From assembly GCA_960531495.1 (NCBI GenBank), contig OY482866.1, positions 20,648,384-20,712,383 on the forward strand: a stretch of DNA of 64,000 nt, read 5' to 3'. A program made the translations under genes and the position numbers. The DNA comes from Zeus faber. Its lineage: Eukaryota; Chordata; Actinopteri; Zeiformes; Zeidae. Below the pieces are notes generated by a model. That model was not told where the DNA came from and did not search any database. It worked only from the letters and a program-made list of their open reading frames with translations. How positions within the stretch are numbered: position 1 is the first letter of the stretch; each line of letters opens with the position of its first letter. Positions 5,420 to 55,437 of the stretch are shown one piece after another.

Positions 5420-5449
5420 GCCCGCCCGCAGGCCCCTCTGCGGGCGGGC
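5420..5449. repeat. GC hairpin, 12 bp perfect arms, 6 nt loop
   Basis: GCCCGCCCGCAG (5420-5431) is perfectly complementary to CTGCGGGCGGGC (5438-5449), with loop GCCCCT. It lies in a CpG-dense block. No T-run follows, so it is not terminator-like. Confidence 0.85.
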
Positions 5450-6108
5450 GAGCGCGCGCGCAAGAGAAAAACCTAACCGATGACCGGCTCGGTGGAAATT
5501 CACGAGTTGACACAACCTTGAATACGCAATTGTTCCGTCTCTCCACATTCCCCCCCCCCCCCCCCCCTCCCCGGAACGGGTGGATCTTTGTTTCAGCGCC
5601 TACATCCAGGGGAGCCGTTCAGTTTGACGGTATTTAAGAGGGGATTTAATTTCTCAAATGTGTTGTTCAGTCACCTGCCGCACTGGTCCCTCCGGTCATC
5701 CGCTTCGTCCTTGTTTATCAGCGGCGTCCAGGCGTGCTCGCAGACGCCGCCGGTCTGACGCCTAAATCCTCTGCGTAAACTGACGCGGCCGCGCCTCACT
5801 CCCCACTCCTCATTTCCTTTGCGTCCACGTTGAGAGCAGCGAGGAGGGGGGGGCGGGGGGGACGGACTCTGGAATGGATGCACAGAAAAAAGCACAAGCT
5901 GTTGCGTGACGGACCCCCCGGACCCCCGCTTGATCCGCGTCCCCCGGGGCATGGGGCCACTGACACCGTGTCCCTTGTTTTTTTTTCCACATTGAAGGTG
6001 GCAACCCTGCAGGCAGCGGCTCGGACCTCACCACGCCGGAACCAATGCCGTCACAATTTTACCAAAGGGCCGACTACCCTGGACCCCGTGTATTTATTCT
6101 TATTTCTG

Positions 6109-6110
<2 letters not shown>
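5450..6110. other. Single-copy sequence with a C18 run
   Basis: Contains an uninterrupted C tract at 5550-5567 and GC-rich sequence up to 6000. No coding or RNA signal was recognised. Confidence 0.5.
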
Positions 6111-6148
<38 letters not shown>

Positions 6149-6177
6149 CATTTGTAGTAGTAGTAGTAGTAGTAGTT
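6111..6177. repeat. (ATT)n followed by (GTA)n microsatellites
   Basis: ATT units at 6111-6148 and GTA units at 6154-6177, separated by a few bases. Confidence 0.95.
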
Positions 6178-6249
6178 TAGTATTAGTATTATTATGTTTT
6201 TTATTTTTTATTTTTTATTTTTACATCCGGGGCTCTTCATAAAACATTT

Positions 6250-7487
6250 CCCTCTCGCCTCTCCCTTTCTCTCTCTCTCTCTCTCTGTCTGTCCCCCGCT
6301 TTTGCTGTTTCGCCCGTCTCCCCCTCTCGCCTCCCCCTTCTCTCCCTCCCCTCTCTTTCTCTGTTCCCCCACTTTCTTTCCATCTCCCCCTCTCCCTTCC
6401 TCGCTCCCCCTCTCCCTCTCTATCTCTGTCTCCCTCTTCCTCTGTCTCCCACTCCCCTCTGTCTCCCCCCCCTCTCCCTCCCTCTCTGTCTCGCCCTCTC
6501 CCTCTTCCTCTCTCTCTCCCTCTCTCTCTGTCTCCCTCTTCCTGTCTCCCTCTTCCTCACTCTCCCTCTGTCTCCCCCTCTCTCTCTCTCCCTCTCTGTC
6601 TCGCCTTCTCCCTCCTCCTCTCTCTCCCCCTCTCCCCCTCTCTCTCTGGCTCCCTCCTCCTGTCCCTCCCTCTCTGTCTCCCACTCCCATCTGTCTCCCC
6701 CTCTCGCTCCCTCTCTGTCTCGCCCTCTCCCTCCTCCTCTCTCTCCCCCTCCCACCCCCCCTCCCTCTGTCTTCCTCTTCCTCGCTCTCGCTCTGTCTCC
6801 CACTCCCCTCTCTCTCCCTCCCCTCTCTCCCCTATTTCGTCTCCCCTTGCTAATAAGCCTTTCTCTTCTTCATGCATGGGGGCGTACCACTCCCCCCCCC
6901 CTCTCTCCCTCCTCCTCTCTCCGCCTCTCTTTCTCCCCCTCTGTCTCCATCTCTCTCTCCCTCTGTCTCCCCCTCTCTCCCAACCCTCTCCCCCTGCCTC
7001 TTTCCTCTCTCTCCCTCTGTCTCCCACTCCCCTCTGTCTCCCACTCTCCCTCCCTCTCTGTCTCGCCCTCTCCCTCCTCCTCTCTCCCTCTGTCTACCCC
7101 TCTCCTCAACCCTCTCGCACTGTCTCCCTCGTCCTCTCCCTCCCTCTCTGTCTCCCACTCCCCTCTGTCTCCCCCTCTCCCTCCATCTCTGTCTGCCCCC
7201 CCCCTCTCTGTCTCCCACTCCCCTCTGTCTCCCCCTCTCGTTCCCTCTCTGTCTCACCCTCTCCCTTCTCCTCTCTTTCGCCCTCTCCCCCTCTCTCTCT
7301 GTCTCCCTCTTCCTCTCTCTCCCTCTGTCTCCCCCTCTCCTCAACCCTCTCTCTCTGTCTCCCTCTTCCTCTCTCCCTCCCTCTCTGTCTCGCCCTCTCC
7401 CCCTCTCCCTCTGTCTCCCACTCCGCCCTGTCGTCTCCTCTCTCCCCCTCCCCTCTCTCCATCTCCCTCCTCTCACTCTCCCCCTCG
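6250..7487. repeat. 1.24 kb polypyrimidine minisatellite
   Basis: Almost every base of the plus strand is C or T, built from words such as CTGTCTCCCACTCCCCTCTG, CTCCCTCTTCCTCTC and CTCGCCCTCTCCCTCC. These recur at irregular spacing, so it is a degenerate minisatellite. A short unique island (about 6838-6893, with CATGCATGGGGGCGTACC) interrupts it. G appears mainly in CTGTCTC and CTCGC words. The tract lacks stop codons, which explains long Arg/Glu- or Ser/Pro/Leu-rich frames; I do not regard these as genes. It could form triplex (H-DNA). Confidence 0.95.
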
Positions 7488-7778
7488 GGGAGGGCATGAG
7501 AGATAGACGTGTCCATCAGTCTGTCTCATGTCGTTCCTCAGTTTGTCGAGAGTGTCGGGGCGCCGCAGCGCTCCTTAAAAAGTTTCCAGCTCGCACCGCG
7601 CCTCAATATGGGGCAAAAAAATAAAAAATAAAAAAAACATATTTAGTTTATTCATCCATTTCCACAAAACGTCCGATATGTTCGCCTCCTCGCACCTTTT
7701 TTTTTTCTTTCCACTCGGCGAGTTCATTTTCGGGGCTGCGTGTCTCTCTCGTCGCTCTGGGGAGATATCGGTTTTTAA
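7488..7778. other. Single-copy spacer, nothing recognised
   Basis: Mixed sequence with a short A-rich stretch at 7614-7638. No feature found. Confidence 0.5.
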
Positions 7779-8060
7779 ATGGTGAGATATTCACTTTATA
7801 ATGTGGAGTAAATGGTGAGATGCTTGTTTTTAAAGGAGGAGGAAGTGGTAAGATATGTTTTACATATTGGTAAGATATTTGTTTTTTAATGTGCAGTAAA
7901 TGGGAAGAAGTGTGCATTGAATGTAATGGAGTAAATGGGAAGATATTTGTGTTAAATGTTGAGTAAATGATAAAATATTCCTTTTTAAATGGGGAGGACG
8001 TGGTAAGATAGTTTTCCATTTTTTTTTTTAATGTAAATGTAAAAGTAAATGGTGAGATTA
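7779..8060. repeat. Degenerate tandem repeat, TAAATGG(T/G)(G/A)AGAT motif
   Basis: About seven diverged units of 30-45 bp share AGTAAATGGTGAGAT or GTGGTAAGATA followed by a T-rich run (TTTGTTTTTAAA). It is old and heavily substituted. Confidence 0.65.
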
Positions 8061-11226: not shown

Positions 11227-11264
11227 GATTCTTACCTTCAAATCCCGGTTTGAAGGTAAGAATC
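11227..11264. repeat. Perfect hairpin, 16 bp arms, 6 nt loop
   Basis: GATTCTTACCTTCAAA (11227-11242) and its exact complement (11249-11264) flank the loop TCCCGG. There are no mismatches, which for such a short loop suggests a recent origin or selection for pairing. No T-run or tRNA-like flank is present. Confidence 0.95.
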
Positions 11265-12142
11265 TCTTGGCTCCGCTATAGAAATGAGGAGATGGCTTAG
11301 CAGGCAGCTGGAAAATCCCATGTGTGTAGCGTTGCATGAAGAAGGGCACATGTGTGAAGGCAGAAAAAGGCACTTTACACATGGTTGACTAAGCCAATTC
11401 ACAATTTCCCCTTTTGTTCCCCCCAAAGCTTCAAAGAGAGATGCAGGAAGACAGAGAGTCTTAGAGACTGGATTTATATCAAGCGCGGCTCTCCTCTCTC
11501 GGGACGCTTCAAAGACGCACAAGAGTTGAAAAATGTGGAGCAGGAGATTTGTAAACTCTGGAAAAGTTCTGTATGTTAATACGAGACGTGAGAAGTGAAT
11601 AAACAGTATACAAATGGGACAATATGCCTGGTTGCGCAAAATAAGAGCGGCCTATATCTCATGACGACTCATGGCCTTTGTGGATAGCCGTGGAATTTCA
11701 TATATGTTGTCTCTGAGGAGCGACGCAAAGGGAACGCGGCACAATAAACTTGTCAAAGTTGAACTATTAAGCGGCAGACAGAGCTACTGTGTGGCTTTAA
11801 AACCAAAGCCAGGGGGCGTATCTGCGCTCACGCTGATGTATACCGTGTGACATGGTCGTATTTTGATTCCCGTGTTGTGTATCGTTCCAGCCGAATGTAC
11901 GGTCCCAGCCCCTCGTGCGTATGAGCGTAACGCTTGACTTTGAGGTGCACAGCCACTCAGACTTAGCTGATCACGAGTCAGCTCATATGGCTCTTTTGGC
12001 ATTATTCACAGGTTACCCGCGCTTTATTCAGACCTCCCTCATGCCAGACACTTAGAATTATTTACGTAGATATCTTTTCCCGCCCCATGGTGGCCAAGTT
12101 TCCGCTCAGAATTTTTTCGGAAGTTGTTTAATGTAATAAATA
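11265..12142. other. Single-copy sequence, nothing recognised
   Basis: Mixed composition. No repeat, RNA or coding feature was found. Confidence 0.5.
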
Positions 12143-12205
12143 CTATAAATACTAGAAACCACAAATAGACGCTTTCTGTCTATTTGTGGTTTCTAGTATT
12201 TATAG
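12143..12205. repeat. Perfect hairpin, 28 bp arms, 7 nt loop
   Basis: The left arm 12143-12170 (starting CTATAAATAC, ending ACAAATAGAC) is the exact reverse complement of the right arm 12178-12205. The loop 12171-12177 is GCTTTCT. All 28 pairs are Watson-Crick. Total length is 63 nt, close to a pre-miRNA, but pairing stops abruptly at both arm ends, so a lower stem is lacking. It could be a template-switch product, an expressed hairpin RNA or an assembly artefact. Confidence 0.97.
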
Positions 12206-21039: not shown

Positions 21040-21094
21040 GACCTTGGGCGGATGCAAAACACTGTACCGCAGTGTTTTGCATCCGCCCAAGGTC
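21040..21094. repeat. Perfect hairpin, 25 bp arms, 5 nt loop
   Basis: The left arm 21040-21064 (starting GACCTTGGGCGG, ending AAAACACTG) is the exact reverse complement of 21070-21094. The loop is TACCG. All 25 pairs are canonical. Like the hairpin at 12143, pairing ends sharply. Origin by intrastrand template switching is a natural explanation; expression as a hairpin RNA is possible. Confidence 0.97.
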
Positions 21095-22506: not shown

Positions 22507-24455
22507 CACTACTACTGACTACGGAAGTAAATGTACGTACCAGCCCCAAAAAACCTGCAATTTTGGAACGGCACCAGTGGTGTTTAACATAATTACACAC
22601 CAGGTGTTTGATTGTGGCGTCAGTTATTGGAGGCCTGAAGGAGGTTTTTTTTCATTTTTTGAGGGGTTATTTTTGCGGGGGTTTTTTGAGTGTCATGGGA
22701 AAAAGAAGTACCTACCTCAGTGAATGCACAAAAGGTTTGCCGGCCCGGCCATTGACCAAAATGACTGACATGCCAAATAAAAATCACCGGCCTAGTCTTG
22801 TAATGCTAATACCGTCCAAAAAAGCGTTTTGACTGAACAGCCCAGTGCTTGATATATTTGCTCACATTACATCGCACCTGAGGGGACGTATAATCTTACA
22901 AGATATTGATCTCATTATTTACCGGAAAATGAAAGCCAAAGAACACCAGAGTGGCTGTTGTACTGTCCAGTACAAAGGCCACTCAGATGTTCTTGGAAGC
23001 TGCCAGTGACATGAATAACTCATGGGGTGACACCATGCCACTAACAGAAGTACAGTTTGAGCAAACAGCCGTCCTTCAGCTGCCACGGTTTGCTTTGCCC
23101 ATTTAACTGTAATGGCGGCTTGCATTAAAATATACCATGGATTTATTTCCTCGCTCACCTTTTTGGCAGGACTGAAACAAGAATGTGCTTTTCAGCCTGC
23201 AGAGTGTAAATAACAGCCTGGTGGAATGAGAGAGGGGGGATAATCAAGAATAGAAGCTGCCTGGAACAGCGACATGTATCGCCTCCGATAAGTTCGCCAT
23301 GAGTCATTTGTCTTCTGTCAAAATTGGTGTCGACGCCTCCCTCTCTCTTATCGCACTTGGCAGTTTGTACTGTGTTTAGATGCAGCTCTACAGCCAGCCG
23401 GCTCATGCACAGGGAGCAAATTTTTCAAGAGAGGGTGCCCTTCTTCCCCGCTCGGTGGCTTAATGTCAAGGGGGCTGTGTATTACTGAATTTCCCTTGAG
23501 ATCGCCTCTGGTGTTAATCAGAGGCGAATATGACCGCTGATTTATTGGATGAAACACGTCCTTTTTGGATGTGAATGTCCGTCAGGGCTGACAGCGGGGA
23601 CGCCGTCTGGGTGTAGTGCCTTTTTAATACAAGCGGGGGATTCATCTCCGTGTTAGAAGGAGGGATTTCCGTGTATTTTCCCTGTTTTATCAGGGATGAA
23701 ATGTAATAATACCTTTAGGGAACCGCTAAGTAACCGTTTTCAGCCTGAGCGTGGATGAATGCGGTTTTACGGGTTAAGTATGGTTCCATTACCTTGTCTA
23801 AGTATCCCGTAGAAAGAATAAACTAGCTACAAGCTCTTAATATGTAATTATGGTCATTTAGGGTAATTTTTATTTCCATGTTAAAGTTGGAATTATTCCT
23901 TATGCTTAATGCACTTCGTCACACCCTTGCCGGTTTTAATGAGTTACTGAAATCAACTGCTTTTTTGAGTGGCTTACATTAACATTATTATGCATTCATG
24001 CGGTGAACCCTCAAGTAGCTTGTGGATTACTCAGTGCATTTTTCACCTATTATTGTAGACAAAGACCAGAAACAATGCCATTGCACAGTATTTAACACTT
24101 GGAACAAATAAACCATACTTACTCCAGTCTCCAGTGACTCGCACAGAAGAACCCGAAAGTCAATTGTTGGTTAATTACATTCCTAGCGGTGCTTTGTAAA
24201 TTACATTTTGCGAGGAATCAATTGCCCATTGCCTGGATTCAGAGCAGGTTTGTGGTTAAATGTGCATTTAGGGGAACAACCAATGGACACTAATCTTTCT
24301 GCTTATCCGCTGTCTTCCCTGTCAGTTCCAGGTAACAAGTCACTGCTCTCTGACATGCGCTGAGGAAAACCTGGCTCTACAACAGATTAGAGATTCACCA
24401 ATGTGTCAGGCTATGTGTGGAAAGAAATAGGCACAATTCTAAATAATTTGGGGTC
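22507..24455. other. Single-copy sequence, no gene seen
   Basis: Moderately AT-rich. TCGCCTCTG (23502-23510) and CAGAGGCGA (23519-23527) form a 9 bp hairpin with an 8 nt loop. Nothing else was recognised. Confidence 0.5.
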
Positions 24456-25544
24456 CACACCGATCAGCCACAACATTGAAACCACCACTAATAACCACTA
24501 ATATTGTGAAGCTCCCCCTCATGACGCCAAAACAGCTCTGACGCATGGAGGCGTGGACTCCACCAGACTCTGAAGGTGTCCTGTGGTACCTGGCACCAAG
24601 ACGTTAGCAGCAGATCCTTCAAGTCCTGGAAATTGTGAGGTGGGGCCCCCATGGATCGGGCTTGTTGTTCCAGCACATCCCACAGGTGCTCCATGGGATG
24701 GAGATCTAGGGAATTTGGAGGCCAACTCAACACCTTGAACTCTTGGTCATGTTCCTAAAACCATTTCTGAACAATTTTTGCAGTGTGGCAAGGAGCATTA
24801 TCGTGCTGGAGGAGGCCACTGCCATCAGGGAATACTGCATGAAGGGATGTCCTTGGTCTGTCACAATGTTTAGGTAGGTGGTACCTGTCAAAGTAACCTC
24901 CGTCGGCTTGCCTTCCTCCCATAATGCATCCTTCTGACATCTCTTCCGCCGGTAAATGACGCACACGCACACACGTGGCCATCCACATGATGTAGAAGAA
25001 AAAGGTGACTCATCAGACCGGGCCACCTTCTTCCATTGCTCCAAGGTCCAGTCCTGACGCTCACGTGTCCATTGTAGGAGCTTTCAGAGGTGGACAGGGC
25101 TCAGCATGGACACTGTGAGCGCTCTGCAGCTACACAGCTCCATACGCAGCAAGCTGTGATGCACTGTGTGTTCTACACCTTTCTATCACAGCACCATTCA
25201 CTTGTTCACCAATTTATGCTTCAGTAGCTCTTCTGTGGGATCGAACCAGATGGGCTGGACTTCGCTCCCCACGCGCATCAGGGGCATCAATGATCAGGTT
25301 GTCCTTTCTTGGGGCACTTTTGGTAGGTACTAACCACTACCAGGAACACCCCACAAGACCTGCCGTTTTGGAAATGCTCTGACCCAGTCATTTAACCATC
25401 CCATTTTGGCCCCTTGTCACAGTCGCTCAGATCCTTACACTTTCCCATTTTTCCAGCTTCCAACAAATCAACTTCATGAGACTGACTGACGCGGTATTCA
25501 TTTCAACTGTCAGTGTTTTTTAGGTTGTGGCTGATCAGTGTATA
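24456..25544 (-). mobile_element. Tc1-like (Tc1/mariner) DNA transposon A, near full length
   Basis: The left end reads CACACCGATCAGCCACAACA, and the right end, read inverted, TACACTGATCAGCCACAACC. These inverted terminal repeats match those of a Tc1-like family widespread in fish. Length is 1.09 kb, close to the usual 1.1-1.3 kb. The transposase frame runs on the minus strand and is broken. TA duplications are not clean, with TATA on the right and TCCA on the left. Element C at 54990 belongs to the same family. Confidence 0.9.
24488..25448 (-). pseudogene. Decayed Tc1-like transposase (element A)
   Basis: A functional copy would bind the terminal repeats through an N-terminal helix-turn-helix domain and cut and paste the element with a DD34E catalytic core. 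Here the family start lies at about 25448 (minus). All three catalytic positions remain visible but in different frames: RSDES (first Asp), HDNAPCHTAK (second Asp) and PMEHLWD (Glu, after WPPNSLDLHP). The change of frame between these motifs implies at least two frameshifts, and stops interrupt the N-terminal part. It cannot make a full protein. Confidence 0.9.
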
Positions 25545-34774: not shown

Positions 34775-34804
34775 AGCGTTTGTACCTGGACGGGTACAAA
34801 CGCT
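34775..34804. repeat. Perfect hairpin, 12 bp arms, 6 nt loop
   Basis: AGCGTTTGTACC (34775-34786) pairs perfectly with GGTACAAACGCT (34793-34804), loop TGGACG. It is followed by CTGACACCCCTG, which resembles an inverted hAT end, but no second end was found. Confidence 0.9.
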
Positions 34805-46562: not shown

Positions 46563-46590
46563 AATGGTTCCCTCAGACAAGGGAACCATT
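46563..46590. repeat. Perfect hairpin, 11 bp arms, 6 nt loop
   Basis: AATGGTTCCCT (46563-46573) pairs with AGGGAACCATT (46580-46590), loop CAGACA. Confidence 0.9.
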
Positions 46591-47992: not shown

Positions 47993-49520
47993 CCGGTTTA
48001 AACCAGCTTGAAGCAGCTTGAACCCCCAGCCACTCGTTTAAGACCAGTACGCCGGTTTAAACCAGTAACCAGCCTGCCGTTTGGGACCAGTACGCCAGTT
48101 TAAACCAGTAACCAGCCTGTCATTTTGGACCAGTCAACCAATAAACAGCAGTTTAAACCAGTAACCAGCCTGTCGTTTGGGACCATTTAACCAGGTAGGA
48201 CCAGTAAACCAGTTTAAAAGACTTACCAGCCTGTCTTTGGGACCAGTAAGCCGGTTTAAACCAGTAAGCAGCCTGTCCTTTGGGACCAGTACGCCAGTTT
48301 AAACCAACAACCAGCCTGTCTTTTGTGACCAGTACGCCAGTTTAAACCAGTAACCAGCCTGTCATTTTGGACCAGTCAACCAATAAACAGCAGTTTAAAC
48401 CAGTAACCAGCCTGTCGTTTGGGACCATTTAACCAGGTAGGACCAGTAAACCAGTTTAAAAGACTTACCAGCCTTTCTTTGGGACCAGTAAGCCGGTTTA
48501 AACCAGTAACCAGCCTGTCGTTTGGGACCAGTACGCCAGTTTAAACCAATAATCAGCCTGTCTTTTGTGACCAGTAAACCAGTTTACAGCAGTTTAAACC
48601 AGTAACCAGCCTGTCATTTGGGACCAGTACGCAAGTTTAAATTAGTAATCAGCCTGTCATTTGGGACCAGTACGTCAGTTTTAACCAGTAACCAGCCTGT
48701 CATTTGAGACCAGTACGCCGGTTTAAACCAGTAACCAGCCTGTCATTTGGGACCAGTTTGCCAGTTCAAACCAGTAACCAGCCTGTCATTTGGGACCAGT
48801 ACGCCAGTTTAAACCAGTAACCAGCCTGTCATTTGGGACCAGTTTGCCAGTTCAAACCAGTAGCCAGCCTGTCATTTGGGACCAGTTTGCCAGTTCAAAC
48901 CAGTAACCAGCCTGTCATTTGGGACCAGTACGCCAGTTTAAACCAGTAACCAGCCTGTCATTTGGGACCAGTTTGCCAGTTCAAACCAGTAACCAGCCTG
49001 TCATTTGGGACCAGTTTGCCAGTTCAAACCAGTAACCAGCCTGTCATTTGGGACCAGTACGCCAGTTTAAACCAGTAACCAGCCTGTCGTTTGGGACCAT
49101 TACGCAAGTTAAAAACAAGTCACCAGCCTGTTGTTTGGGACCATTTAACCATGTAGGACCAGTAAACCAGTTTAAAAGACTTACTGGCCTGTCTTTTGGG
49201 ACTAGTATGCCGGTTATAAAAAAGTACCAGCCTGTCGTTGGGGACCGGTTAACCAGTAAGGACCAGTAAGCCGATTGAACCCAGTAAGCAGCCCGTCGTG
49301 TGGCACCAGTAACCAGCGTGTTGTTTGGGAGCAGTGAGGACCAGTAAAACCAGTTTACAGCAGTTTAAACCGTGAACCAGCCTGTCGTTTAGGGCCAGGC
49401 GGCCGGTTTAGCCAGTAACCAGCCTGTCGGTGGGGACCCTTTAACCAGTTAGGACCAGTAAACCAGTTTACAGCAGTTCAAACCTGTAACCAGCCAGTCG
49501 GTTAGGACCAGTAAACCACT
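47993..49520 (+). repeat. 43 bp minisatellite, about 35 units, with higher-order structure
   Basis: The core unit reads CCAGTAACCAGCCTGTCATT, then TGGGACCAGTACG and CCAGTTTAAA. The period of 43 bp is constant in the centre and degrades towards both edges. The 242 bp block starting at 48119 is repeated almost exactly from 48361. From 48700 to 49080, units ending TACGCC and TTTGCC are interspersed in runs. GGTTTAAACC forms a small palindrome in many units. There are no unique spacers, so it is not CRISPR-like. No conserved frame runs through it. Confidence 0.97.
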
Positions 49521-49610
49521 TATTTCAACCTATTCCACCTTAAACCACCAATTCCTTCGAGCTCGGTGATATAATTTATATATATATATATATATATATG
49601 TATATGTTGT
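49521..49610. repeat. (TA)n next to the minisatellite
   Basis: (TA)12 at 49577-49600 with flanking AT-rich sequence. Confidence 0.85.
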
Positions 49611-53618: not shown

Positions 53619-54989
53619 TACACTGCTCGGAAAAAAAAATAAAACACTTAAACAACACATCCTAGATCTCGATGAATGAAATATTCCAGTTGAAAATCTT
53701 TATTCATTACATTGTGGAATGCGTTGAGAACAAAATAACATAAGAATGATCAATGGAAAGCAAAATCATTAACCCATGGAGGTCTGGATTCAGAGTGAAA
53801 CTGAAAATTAAAATGCAAAAATCAGATCACAGGCTGATCCACCTTCTGTGGAAATTCCTCGAGACAATTGAAAACGAGGCTCAGTAGTAGGTGTGGCCTC
53901 CACGTGCCTGTATGCACTCCCTACAACGTCTGGGCATGATCCTGATGAGACGACGGATGTTCTCCTGAGGGATCCCCTCCCGGACTGGATCAGGGCATCA
54001 CTCAACCCCTGGACGGCCTGTGGTGCGACGTGGCGTCGCTGGATGGAACGAGACATGACGTCCCAGAGGTGCTCGATTGGATTCAGGTCTGGGGAACGGG
54101 CAGGCCAGTCCATAGCATCAATGCCTTAGTCATGCAGGAACTGCTCTGTGCGGCCCTCCAAGGATATGCCTCCCCAGACCATCACTGACCCACCGCCAAA
54201 CCGGTCATGCTGGAGGATGTTGCAGGCAGCAGAACGTTCTCCACGGCGTCTCCAGACTCTGTCACGTCTGTCACATGTGCTCAGTGTGAACCTGCTTTCA
54301 CCCGTGAAGAGCACGGGGCGCCAATGGCAAATCTGCCAATACTGGAATTCTCTGGCAAATGCCAATCGGGTTGCAGGGTGTTGGGCTGTGAGCACAGGCC
54401 CCATTTTTGGACGTTGGGCCCTCATACCACCCTCATGGAGTCTGTTTCTGACAGTTTGAGCAGAAACATGCACATTAGTGGCCTGCTGGAGGTCATTTTG
54501 TAGGGCTCTGGCAGTGCTTCTCCTGTATGTCCTTGCACAAAGGAGCAGATAGCGGTCCTGCTGCTGGGTTGTTGTCCTCCAACTGTCTCCAGGTATCTCC
54601 TCCATGCTCTTGACACTGTGCTGGGAGACACAGCAAACCTTCTTGCCACAGCGCGCATTGATGTGAGCTGCACTACCTGAGCAACTTCTGTGGGTTGCAG
54701 ACACCGCCTCATGCTACCTCTAGTGGTGAGGGCACTGGCGAAATGCAAAAGTGACCAAAAATCAGCCAGAAAAGATGAGGACAGGGAAATGGTCTGTGGC
54801 CACCGCCCACAGAACCATTCCTTTATAGGGGTTGTCTTGCTCATTGCCTCTCATTTCCACCTGTTAACAGCAGCTTAAGTGCATTCACAATCAGTGTTGC
54901 TTCCTACCTGGACAGGTTGATATCCCAGAAGTGTGATTCACTTGGAGTTACATTGTATTGATTATGTGTTCCCTTTATTTTTTTGAGCA
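53619..54989 (-). mobile_element. Tc1-like DNA transposon B, near full length
   Basis: The left end TACACTGCTCGGAAAAAAAA is answered by the right end, which read inverted begins TGCTCAAAAAAATAAAGGG. Both continue to AACAC. Length is 1.37 kb, typical for this fish Tc1-like family. The transposase lies on the minus strand and is inactive. The right end runs directly into element C at 54990, a different Tc1-like family. Confidence 0.92.
53808..54712 (-). pseudogene. Decayed Tc1-like transposase (element B)
   Basis: Starting from [16 protein letters not shown] at 54712, the N-terminal helix-turn-helix region contains [18 protein letters not shown], which would bind the terminal repeat. A frameshift follows near 54580. 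The catalytic core then reads VLFTGESRF where the family has TDES, so the first catalytic Asp is Gly. After [15 protein letters not shown] the sequence jumps to QFLHD, a stop and GIDAMDWPARSPDLNPIEHLWD. The segment that should carry the second catalytic Asp (DNARPH-type motif) is deleted. The final Glu (IEHLW) remains. It is inactive by several independent lesions. Confidence 0.93.
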
Positions 54990-55437
54990 CACACCGATCA
55001 GCCACAACATTAAAACCACTGACAGGTGAAGTGAATAACATTGATCTTGTTGTTCCAATGGCTCCTGTCAAGAGGTGGGATGTGTTGGGCAGCAAGTGAA
55101 CAGTCGCTTGTTGAAGTTGATGTGTTGGAAGCAGGAAAAATGCAGACCCCTGTCCACCTCTGAAAGCTCCTACAATGGACACGTGAGCATCAGAACTGGA
55201 CCATGGAGCAATGGAAGAAGGTGGAGGTCTGATGAGTCACGTTTTCTTCTCCATCCTGTGGATGGGCGGGGTTAGGGTCCGATCCGATGGAGCACCTGTG
55301 GGATGTGCTGGAACAAAAAGCCCGATCCATGGGGGCCCCCACCTCACAACTTCCAGGACTTAAAGGATCTGCTGCTAACGTCTTGGTGCCAGATACCACA
55401 GGACACCTTCAGAGGTCTGGTGGAGTCCATTAGGGAG
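54990..55437 (+). mobile_element. Tc1-like element C, internally deleted copy of family A
   Basis: The left end CACACCGATCAGCCACAACA and the next 40 bp match element A's terminal region. At about 55140 the sequence jumps past the helix-turn-helix part to CACCTCTGAAAGCTCCTAC. SDESRFLLHPVDGR follows, and at about 55270 it jumps again to GGAGCACCTGTGGGATGTGC (EHLWD region). At least two internal deletions removed most of the transposase. The right terminal repeat is missing after 55437. Confidence 0.88.

Follow-up and report, generated by a model that had tools for sequence, protein, structure and literature searches.

The stretch of Zeus faber DNA that we analyzed is 64,000 nucleotides long and is referred to here as the window (C22:20648384-20712383). 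It contains a hairpin, the focal hairpin of this report, whose site in the assembly is C22:20660486-20660628. On the forward strand, the left arm occupies window positions 12143 to 12170, the loop, GCTTTCT, positions 12171 to 12177, and the right arm positions 12178 to 12205, with each 28-nt arm being the exact reverse complement of the other. A preliminary description of this DNA had reported a perfect hairpin with 28 bp arms and a 7 nt loop, and this was confirmed, as all 28 of the 28 pairs are exact. The innermost loop bases, G and T, can add a 29th pair through a wobble, which would leave a loop of 5 nt. The same description held that no pairing continues beyond the arms. The flanks are indeed essentially unpaired, but two further pairs lie beyond an outer A/C mismatch, so that the end of the pairing is not quite clean. 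Folded as DNA, the hairpin reaches -27.1 kcal/mol (z -17), and it is also very stable when folded as RNA (z -8.4). A tandem duplication of 9 nt, in which ATAAATACT occurs twice, spans the left outer end of the hairpin at positions 12136 to 12154 of the forward strand (match run of 10 at an offset of 9). The chance of finding such a duplication near either end is around 0.03, a figure that applies to a feature spotted post hoc.

The GC content is about 0.49 in the window, as compared with 0.44 in the control stretches described below, and microsatellites are abundant; like the Tc1-type transposase and the chromosome-sized contigs, these traits suit an animal, probably a ray-finned fish. No gene was identified near the focal hairpin in the 30 open reading frames scanned out of 172 with at least 70 aa, a search that introns and short exons could escape, and the Pfam matches in these 30 frames consisted of pieces of a Tc1-type transposase and one weak match to an unknown domain, with nothing else. 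Neither tRNAs nor Rfam matches at gathering score were found. The transposase is a broken one of the Tc1/mariner type on the reverse strand (53811-54850), with a match to HTH_Tnp_Tc3_2 within 54126-54713 that exceeds its cut-off; the adjoining frames contain weaker pieces of the DDE and HTH types. Next to this remnant, the segments at 24554-25541 and 54991-55429 form an inverted pair whose pieces are 87-95% identical, and they are probably parts of one mobile element family. The window also holds an array of a 43-bp tandem repeat of about 1.5 kb with diverged edges (48026-49521), as well as a tract of about 1.2 kb that is rich in pyrimidines on the forward strand (6250-7469), with a GC skew of about -0.55 over positions 6001-8000.

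The focal hairpin is real and non-random. When sites resembling its arms were sought in the window with up to three mismatches, only the two arms themselves were found, and the number expected from 100 shuffles was 0. Local dinucleotide shuffling of the window, repeated 20 times, gave stems of up to 11 bp at loops of 3-10 nt, and perfect stems reaching 11 bp or more at such loops averaged 0.1 per shuffle, as compared with 6 in the window. We then looked for relatives in the whole genome (803,497,848 bases in 153 contigs), using a search in which very frequent words are passed over and scoring is limited to the best candidates. One query of 143 bases covered the hairpin and another of 1001 bases covered its flanks, and both matched this one place, apart from the hairpin's own inverted self-match, and no paralogue or relative of the locus was found in these 803 Mb. 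An exact search with the focal arm in the non-animal collections viral_contigs and genome_contigs gave 0 matches, and no publication that we could recognize as treating this locus turned up in a literature search.

The six perfect stems of the window with at least 11 bp and a loop of 3-10 nt measure 28, 25, 16, 12, 12, and 11 bp, and all of their loops are 5-7 nt long. Besides the focal hairpin, these are, on the forward strand, a stem of 25 bp with a loop of 5 nt at 21040-21094, whose left flank is a dispersed repeat, and four with loops of 6 nt: 16 bp at 11227-11264, 12 bp at 34775-34804, 12 bp at 5420-5449, and 11 bp at 46563-46590, the last of these being close to the chance limit. Per loop length, there are thus 2 stems at loops of 5-7 nt (6 stems) against 0.05 at loops of 11-200 nt (9 stems). 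None occurs at loops of 3-4 or 8-10 nt, and two overlapping palindromes have loops of 0-2 nt. Given that all six lie at loops of 5-7 nt and that so few are found at 11-200 nt, long perfect pairing in the window is tied to short loops. An imperfect hairpin on the forward strand at 22939-22994, with 26 pairs, 4 mismatches, and a loop of 4 nt, has only a sub-threshold match in Rfam; it may be a decayed hairpin of the same class but greater age, or else a candidate small RNA. We also observed that the base pair just inside the stem is G/T in five of the six window hairpins and C/A in the remaining one, but we dropped this pattern as chance, as the four control hairpins of at least 15 bp do not have it (inner bases CT, GG, CT, and TC).

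Because the window had itself been selected for its hairpin, we took an independent control of 20 stretches of 10 kb, one from each of the contigs C1-C20, starting at position 5,000,001. These places were fixed beforehand, and the filter applied to them differed somewhat from that of the window scan. Within these 200,000 bases (13,029 of them N), there are four perfect stems of at least 15 bp with a loop of 3-10 nt, namely L009 (29 bp, loop 4), L013 (23 bp, loop 5), L010 (15 bp, loop 3), and L022 (15 bp, loop 4), while stems of at least 11 bp total 10. The four correspond to a density of 21 per Mb (95% interval 5.8-55), and the two with at least 20 bp to 10.7 per Mb (95% interval 1.3-39). Extrapolated to the genome, the former density gives roughly 17,000 stems of at least 15 bp, with an interval of about 4,700-44,000, and thus the class may number in the thousands, although this is an extrapolation from a small sample. 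The control also has an excess at short loops, though a smaller one than the window: counting stems of at least 11 bp, there are 2.5 per loop length at loops of 3-4 nt, 0.67 at 5-7 nt, and 1.0 at 8-10 nt, and then 0.5 at 11-20 nt and 0.2-0.3 at 21-100 nt. Control stems of at least 16 bp with longer loops are limited to one at 11-20 nt and another at 51-100 nt. Across the window and the control, the longest stems have loops of 3-7 nt and lengths of up to 29 bp, and their sequences are all different. This combination of differing sequences, variable stem length, and consistently short loops points to a process acting on DNA rather than to a substrate of RNA processing. The literature offered us no count for other animals that could be compared directly. 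A survey of perfect inverted repeats across genomes describes those of eukaryotes as mostly spacerless and their longer arms as rich in AT/TA (PMC13155455); in comparison with the longer arms described there, the hairpins of this genome are not AT/TA-rich.

Two of the control hairpins, L013 and L009, sit inside dispersed repeats, so the other copies of these repeats can serve as an outgroup. The L013 hairpin copy reads GACTCTCTCCT-CCCCACACCCGC-GCCAG-GCGGGTGTGGGG-AGGAGAGAGTC. We fetched six paralogues, which were our own selection among 40 scored out of 679 candidates. All six carry GACTCTCTCCT (0 edits in five, 2 edits in one), and all six carry GCGGGTGTGGGG with 0-2 edits, with other sequence separating the two. 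The inverted partner halves were found as exact strings in none of the six, and their scores were near chance. In one copy of this family, L050, the match to the right flank starts 260 nt past the left anchor, as compared with 51 nt in the hairpin copy, while the other five, which were fetched as shorter pieces, show no right-flank match (27-28 edits in 60). As the new halves are reverse complements of old halves lying within tens of bases, they bear the mark of short-range inverted templated synthesis. Nevertheless, two separate halves have changed and the flank in L050 is shifted, which calls for a minimum of two switches or for repair in which sequence was lost.

The history of L009 appears to be less simple. 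Its inner right arm is kept in seven of the nine paralogues examined, with 2-3 edits where chance would give 4.4-5.5, while the halves of its left arm are not clearly above chance in the nine copies. Five of these bridge the site in 17-21 nt, as compared with 62 nt in the hairpin copy, and the remaining four have other insertions or match on a single flank. The outer right arm is absent from the family too, and the history must therefore be more complex than one copied arm. This comparison left out L041, which is the same place as L038 (G000:C12:6667310-6668171). At that place, a different insertion of several hundred bases occupies the site of the L009 hairpin, with ATGTTGT at its start and family sequence resembling ATGTTGTTTCCTGAAGCCA at its end. 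The repeat copies thus show newly added inverted sequence in L013 and, less simply, in L009.

Other hairpins were less informative in this respect. For L010, one copy, L054, has sequence resembling the left arm together with a GCAA-CAT-TTGC core, neither of which is seen in the other copy, L053. This core may be a 4-bp seed with the same loop as L010, in a test that comprised two copies and half-arms too short for edit scoring. For the hairpin at 21040, a loose alignment suggests that the left arm is family sequence, and the four half-arms are at or near chance in nine copies. We dropped this case as proof of a newly added arm, given that the family is too diverged and the half-arm edits are at that level. 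For the hairpin at 11227, no spanning paralogue was found among the 4 candidates scored.

We consider it very probable that short-range inverted templated copying of DNA gave rise to the focal hairpin. In such a process, a nascent or resected 3′ end would turn back on itself, leaving a loop of a few bases, and copy the neighboring 28 or so bases in reverse, after which it would either return to the original template, as in replication template switching, or be joined to another end, as in foldback repair of a break. The original arm would then be accompanied by a newly made one that pairs with it perfectly and ends abruptly. An inverted copy with abrupt ends beside its template, as expected of a template switch or a foldback event, is what is found at the focal hairpin. 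Since no paralogue of this hairpin was found in the genome search, we infer its template-switch or foldback history by extension from L013 and L009. The 9-nt duplication may be the scar of a return switch, and it suggests that the left arm is the newer one. The allele that preceded the hairpin would be predicted to have one arm absent, a left flank continuing ...GTAATAAATACTAG, and no 9-nt duplication. Between a switch at the fork and the repair of a break, the duplication would favor replication template switching at the focal site, as a return switch that re-anneals slightly upstream leaves a duplication of this kind; for L013, the shifted right flank favors foldback synthesis with end joining. 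The preliminary description had suggested a single intrastrand template switch. The copies of L013 and L009 that do not contain the reverse-complement parts support the inverted copying indirectly, but the single clean switch does not extend to L013, with its two or more switches or repair with loss.

If the pairing were instead kept by selection because the hairpin is the precursor of a functional small RNA, such as a microRNA, a hairpin siRNA, or a mirtron-like RNA, a very stable RNA fold (z -8.4) would be no surprise, and several of the weak, sub-threshold Rfam matches are in fact to unrelated microRNA families. Template switching has also been reported to create human microRNA loci, for example, MIR633 (PMC8794818). 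However, those Rfam matches, at 18-30 bits, fall short of cut-offs of 48-211, and none reaches its gathering score. The focal hairpin and an animal microRNA precursor are both around 60 nt long, but the former has a shorter stem, a smaller loop, and no bulges: its stem of 28 bp (29 with the wobble) and loop of 5-7 nt compare with the stem of around 35 bp and loop of at least 10 nt given for pri-miRNAs in PMC11100773. Moreover, the sister hairpins have short loops in common but stems anywhere between 11 and 29 bp, which is unlike a class of Dicer or Drosha substrates. We therefore regard such a precursor as improbable, and the earlier proposals that the hairpin encodes a small hairpin RNA precursor and that it is under selection find no support. 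As template switching can seed microRNAs, in the account of PMC8794818, the hairpin is better seen as raw material than as evidence of function, and a function of its own is unlikely.

Inverted repeats with abrupt ends are likewise a property of small mobile foldback elements and MITEs, and the window does contain a transposon remnant elsewhere. An element of this type would nevertheless be expected to recur, and the focal hairpin occupies one place in the 803-Mb search, the sequences differ among hairpins, and no target-site duplication is visible by eye in the flanks. In addition, the new parts of L013 are reverse complements of local family sequence and not of a common element, so we find this origin extremely improbable. 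The preliminary description had also raised the possibility of an artefact. A chimeric or fold-back read could produce a perfect hairpin in an assembly, and the control contains 13,029 N among its 200,000 bases. However, a fold-back read would be expected to run on into the reverse complement of the left flank, and unrelated sequence is found on both sides instead. Hairpins with differing arm lengths are found on several contigs, one of them with an apparent loss of flank, which is unlike simple chimeras. Given these unrelated hairpins on several contigs and the matches between their parts and repeat families, a sequencing or assembly artefact is very improbable. We thus return to inverted templated copying: the focal hairpin is best read as a further example of a mutational process that is already known and has acted repeatedly in this genome, and the density of such hairpins is the interesting part.

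The absence of differences among the 56 arm bases of the focal hairpin bounds the divergence since its origin to no more than about 5% per arm. The earlier description of the hairpin as recent is fair in the light of this bound, but only loosely and not in an extreme sense. Arms can also be re-perfected by further switching, as described in PMC7954356 and PMC5677150. Under steady formation and neutral decay, hairpins with 0, 1, and 2 mismatches in their stems would be expected in about equal numbers. Among stems with loops of 3-10 nt in the window and control together, these numbers are 4, 0, and 1 for arms of 20 and 3, 0, and 2 for arms of 25, although the counts are small and some of the imperfect entries are shorter perfect stems read beyond their ends. 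For arms of 15, the numbers are 7, 2, and 15, with shuffles giving 2.4 for two mismatches. Thus, the longer arms hint at fast loss or re-homogenization, while the shorter arms have no clear skew of this kind, and the two-mismatch excess among the latter (15 against 2.4) weakens the argument for homogenization. One could speculate that this lineage makes or keeps perfect short-loop hairpins at an unusually high rate, whether through weak processing of short-loop hairpins (of the Mre11/CtIP type) or through repeated re-perfection by template switching, but we consider this doubtful in view of the counts for arms of 15, and the density is that of this one genome. If it were true, new small RNAs could draw on an ample natural stock of raw hairpins in this genome.

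Whatever the rate, these observations indicate that a striking perfect hairpin need be neither functional nor an artefact. They also illustrate that an outgroup can come from within the same genome, as dispersed repeat copies show which of the halves of a hairpin were added. Should the density prove to be genome-wide and high in comparison with other animals, the rate of fold-back mutation, the rule for loop size, and the fate of the products would all be directly measurable, and such measurements would bear on the birth of hairpin RNAs.

Comparable processes have been described in other organisms. Template switching with return to the template is presented in PMC7954356 as a route to such inverted copies, and as in the four-point model of template switching (PMC7954356 and PMC8794818), we observe an inverted copy beside its template and the gain of stable hairpins. 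Ancestral copies that do not contain the copied part are a further feature of this model, represented here by L013 and, less simply, by L009. In great apes, three genomes were compared and 4017 significant events reported, the copied segment having a median of 12 nt among the 1503 gold-standard events (PMC7954356); as these events and the approximately 11 standing stems of at least 20 bp per Mb found here are different measures, the contrast is only suggestive.

The closest parallels to the individual structures come from yeast. In foldback inversions, which are described as primed by microhomology, with the other end captured by end joining (PMC11724301 and PMC7467729), we find a process that fits the shifted right flank of L013. 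Inverted insertions at yeast breaks are reported to be mostly 5-34 bp long (PMC11724301), although the local case described there has a loop of 41 nt, as compared with 3-7 nt for the stems of at least 15 bp found here, and short loops (<15 nt) are said in PMC7467729 to be normally suppressed by Mre11/Sae2. In rad27-deleted yeast, a nascent strand that has folded over at a small palindrome is extended by tens of copied bases before going back to its template, and the product is an inverted copy accompanied by a short direct duplication (PMC5677150). A comparable duplication lies at the left end of the focal hairpin. In that report, the events are new mutations in a repair mutant, whereas here we are dealing with a standing feature of an animal genome.
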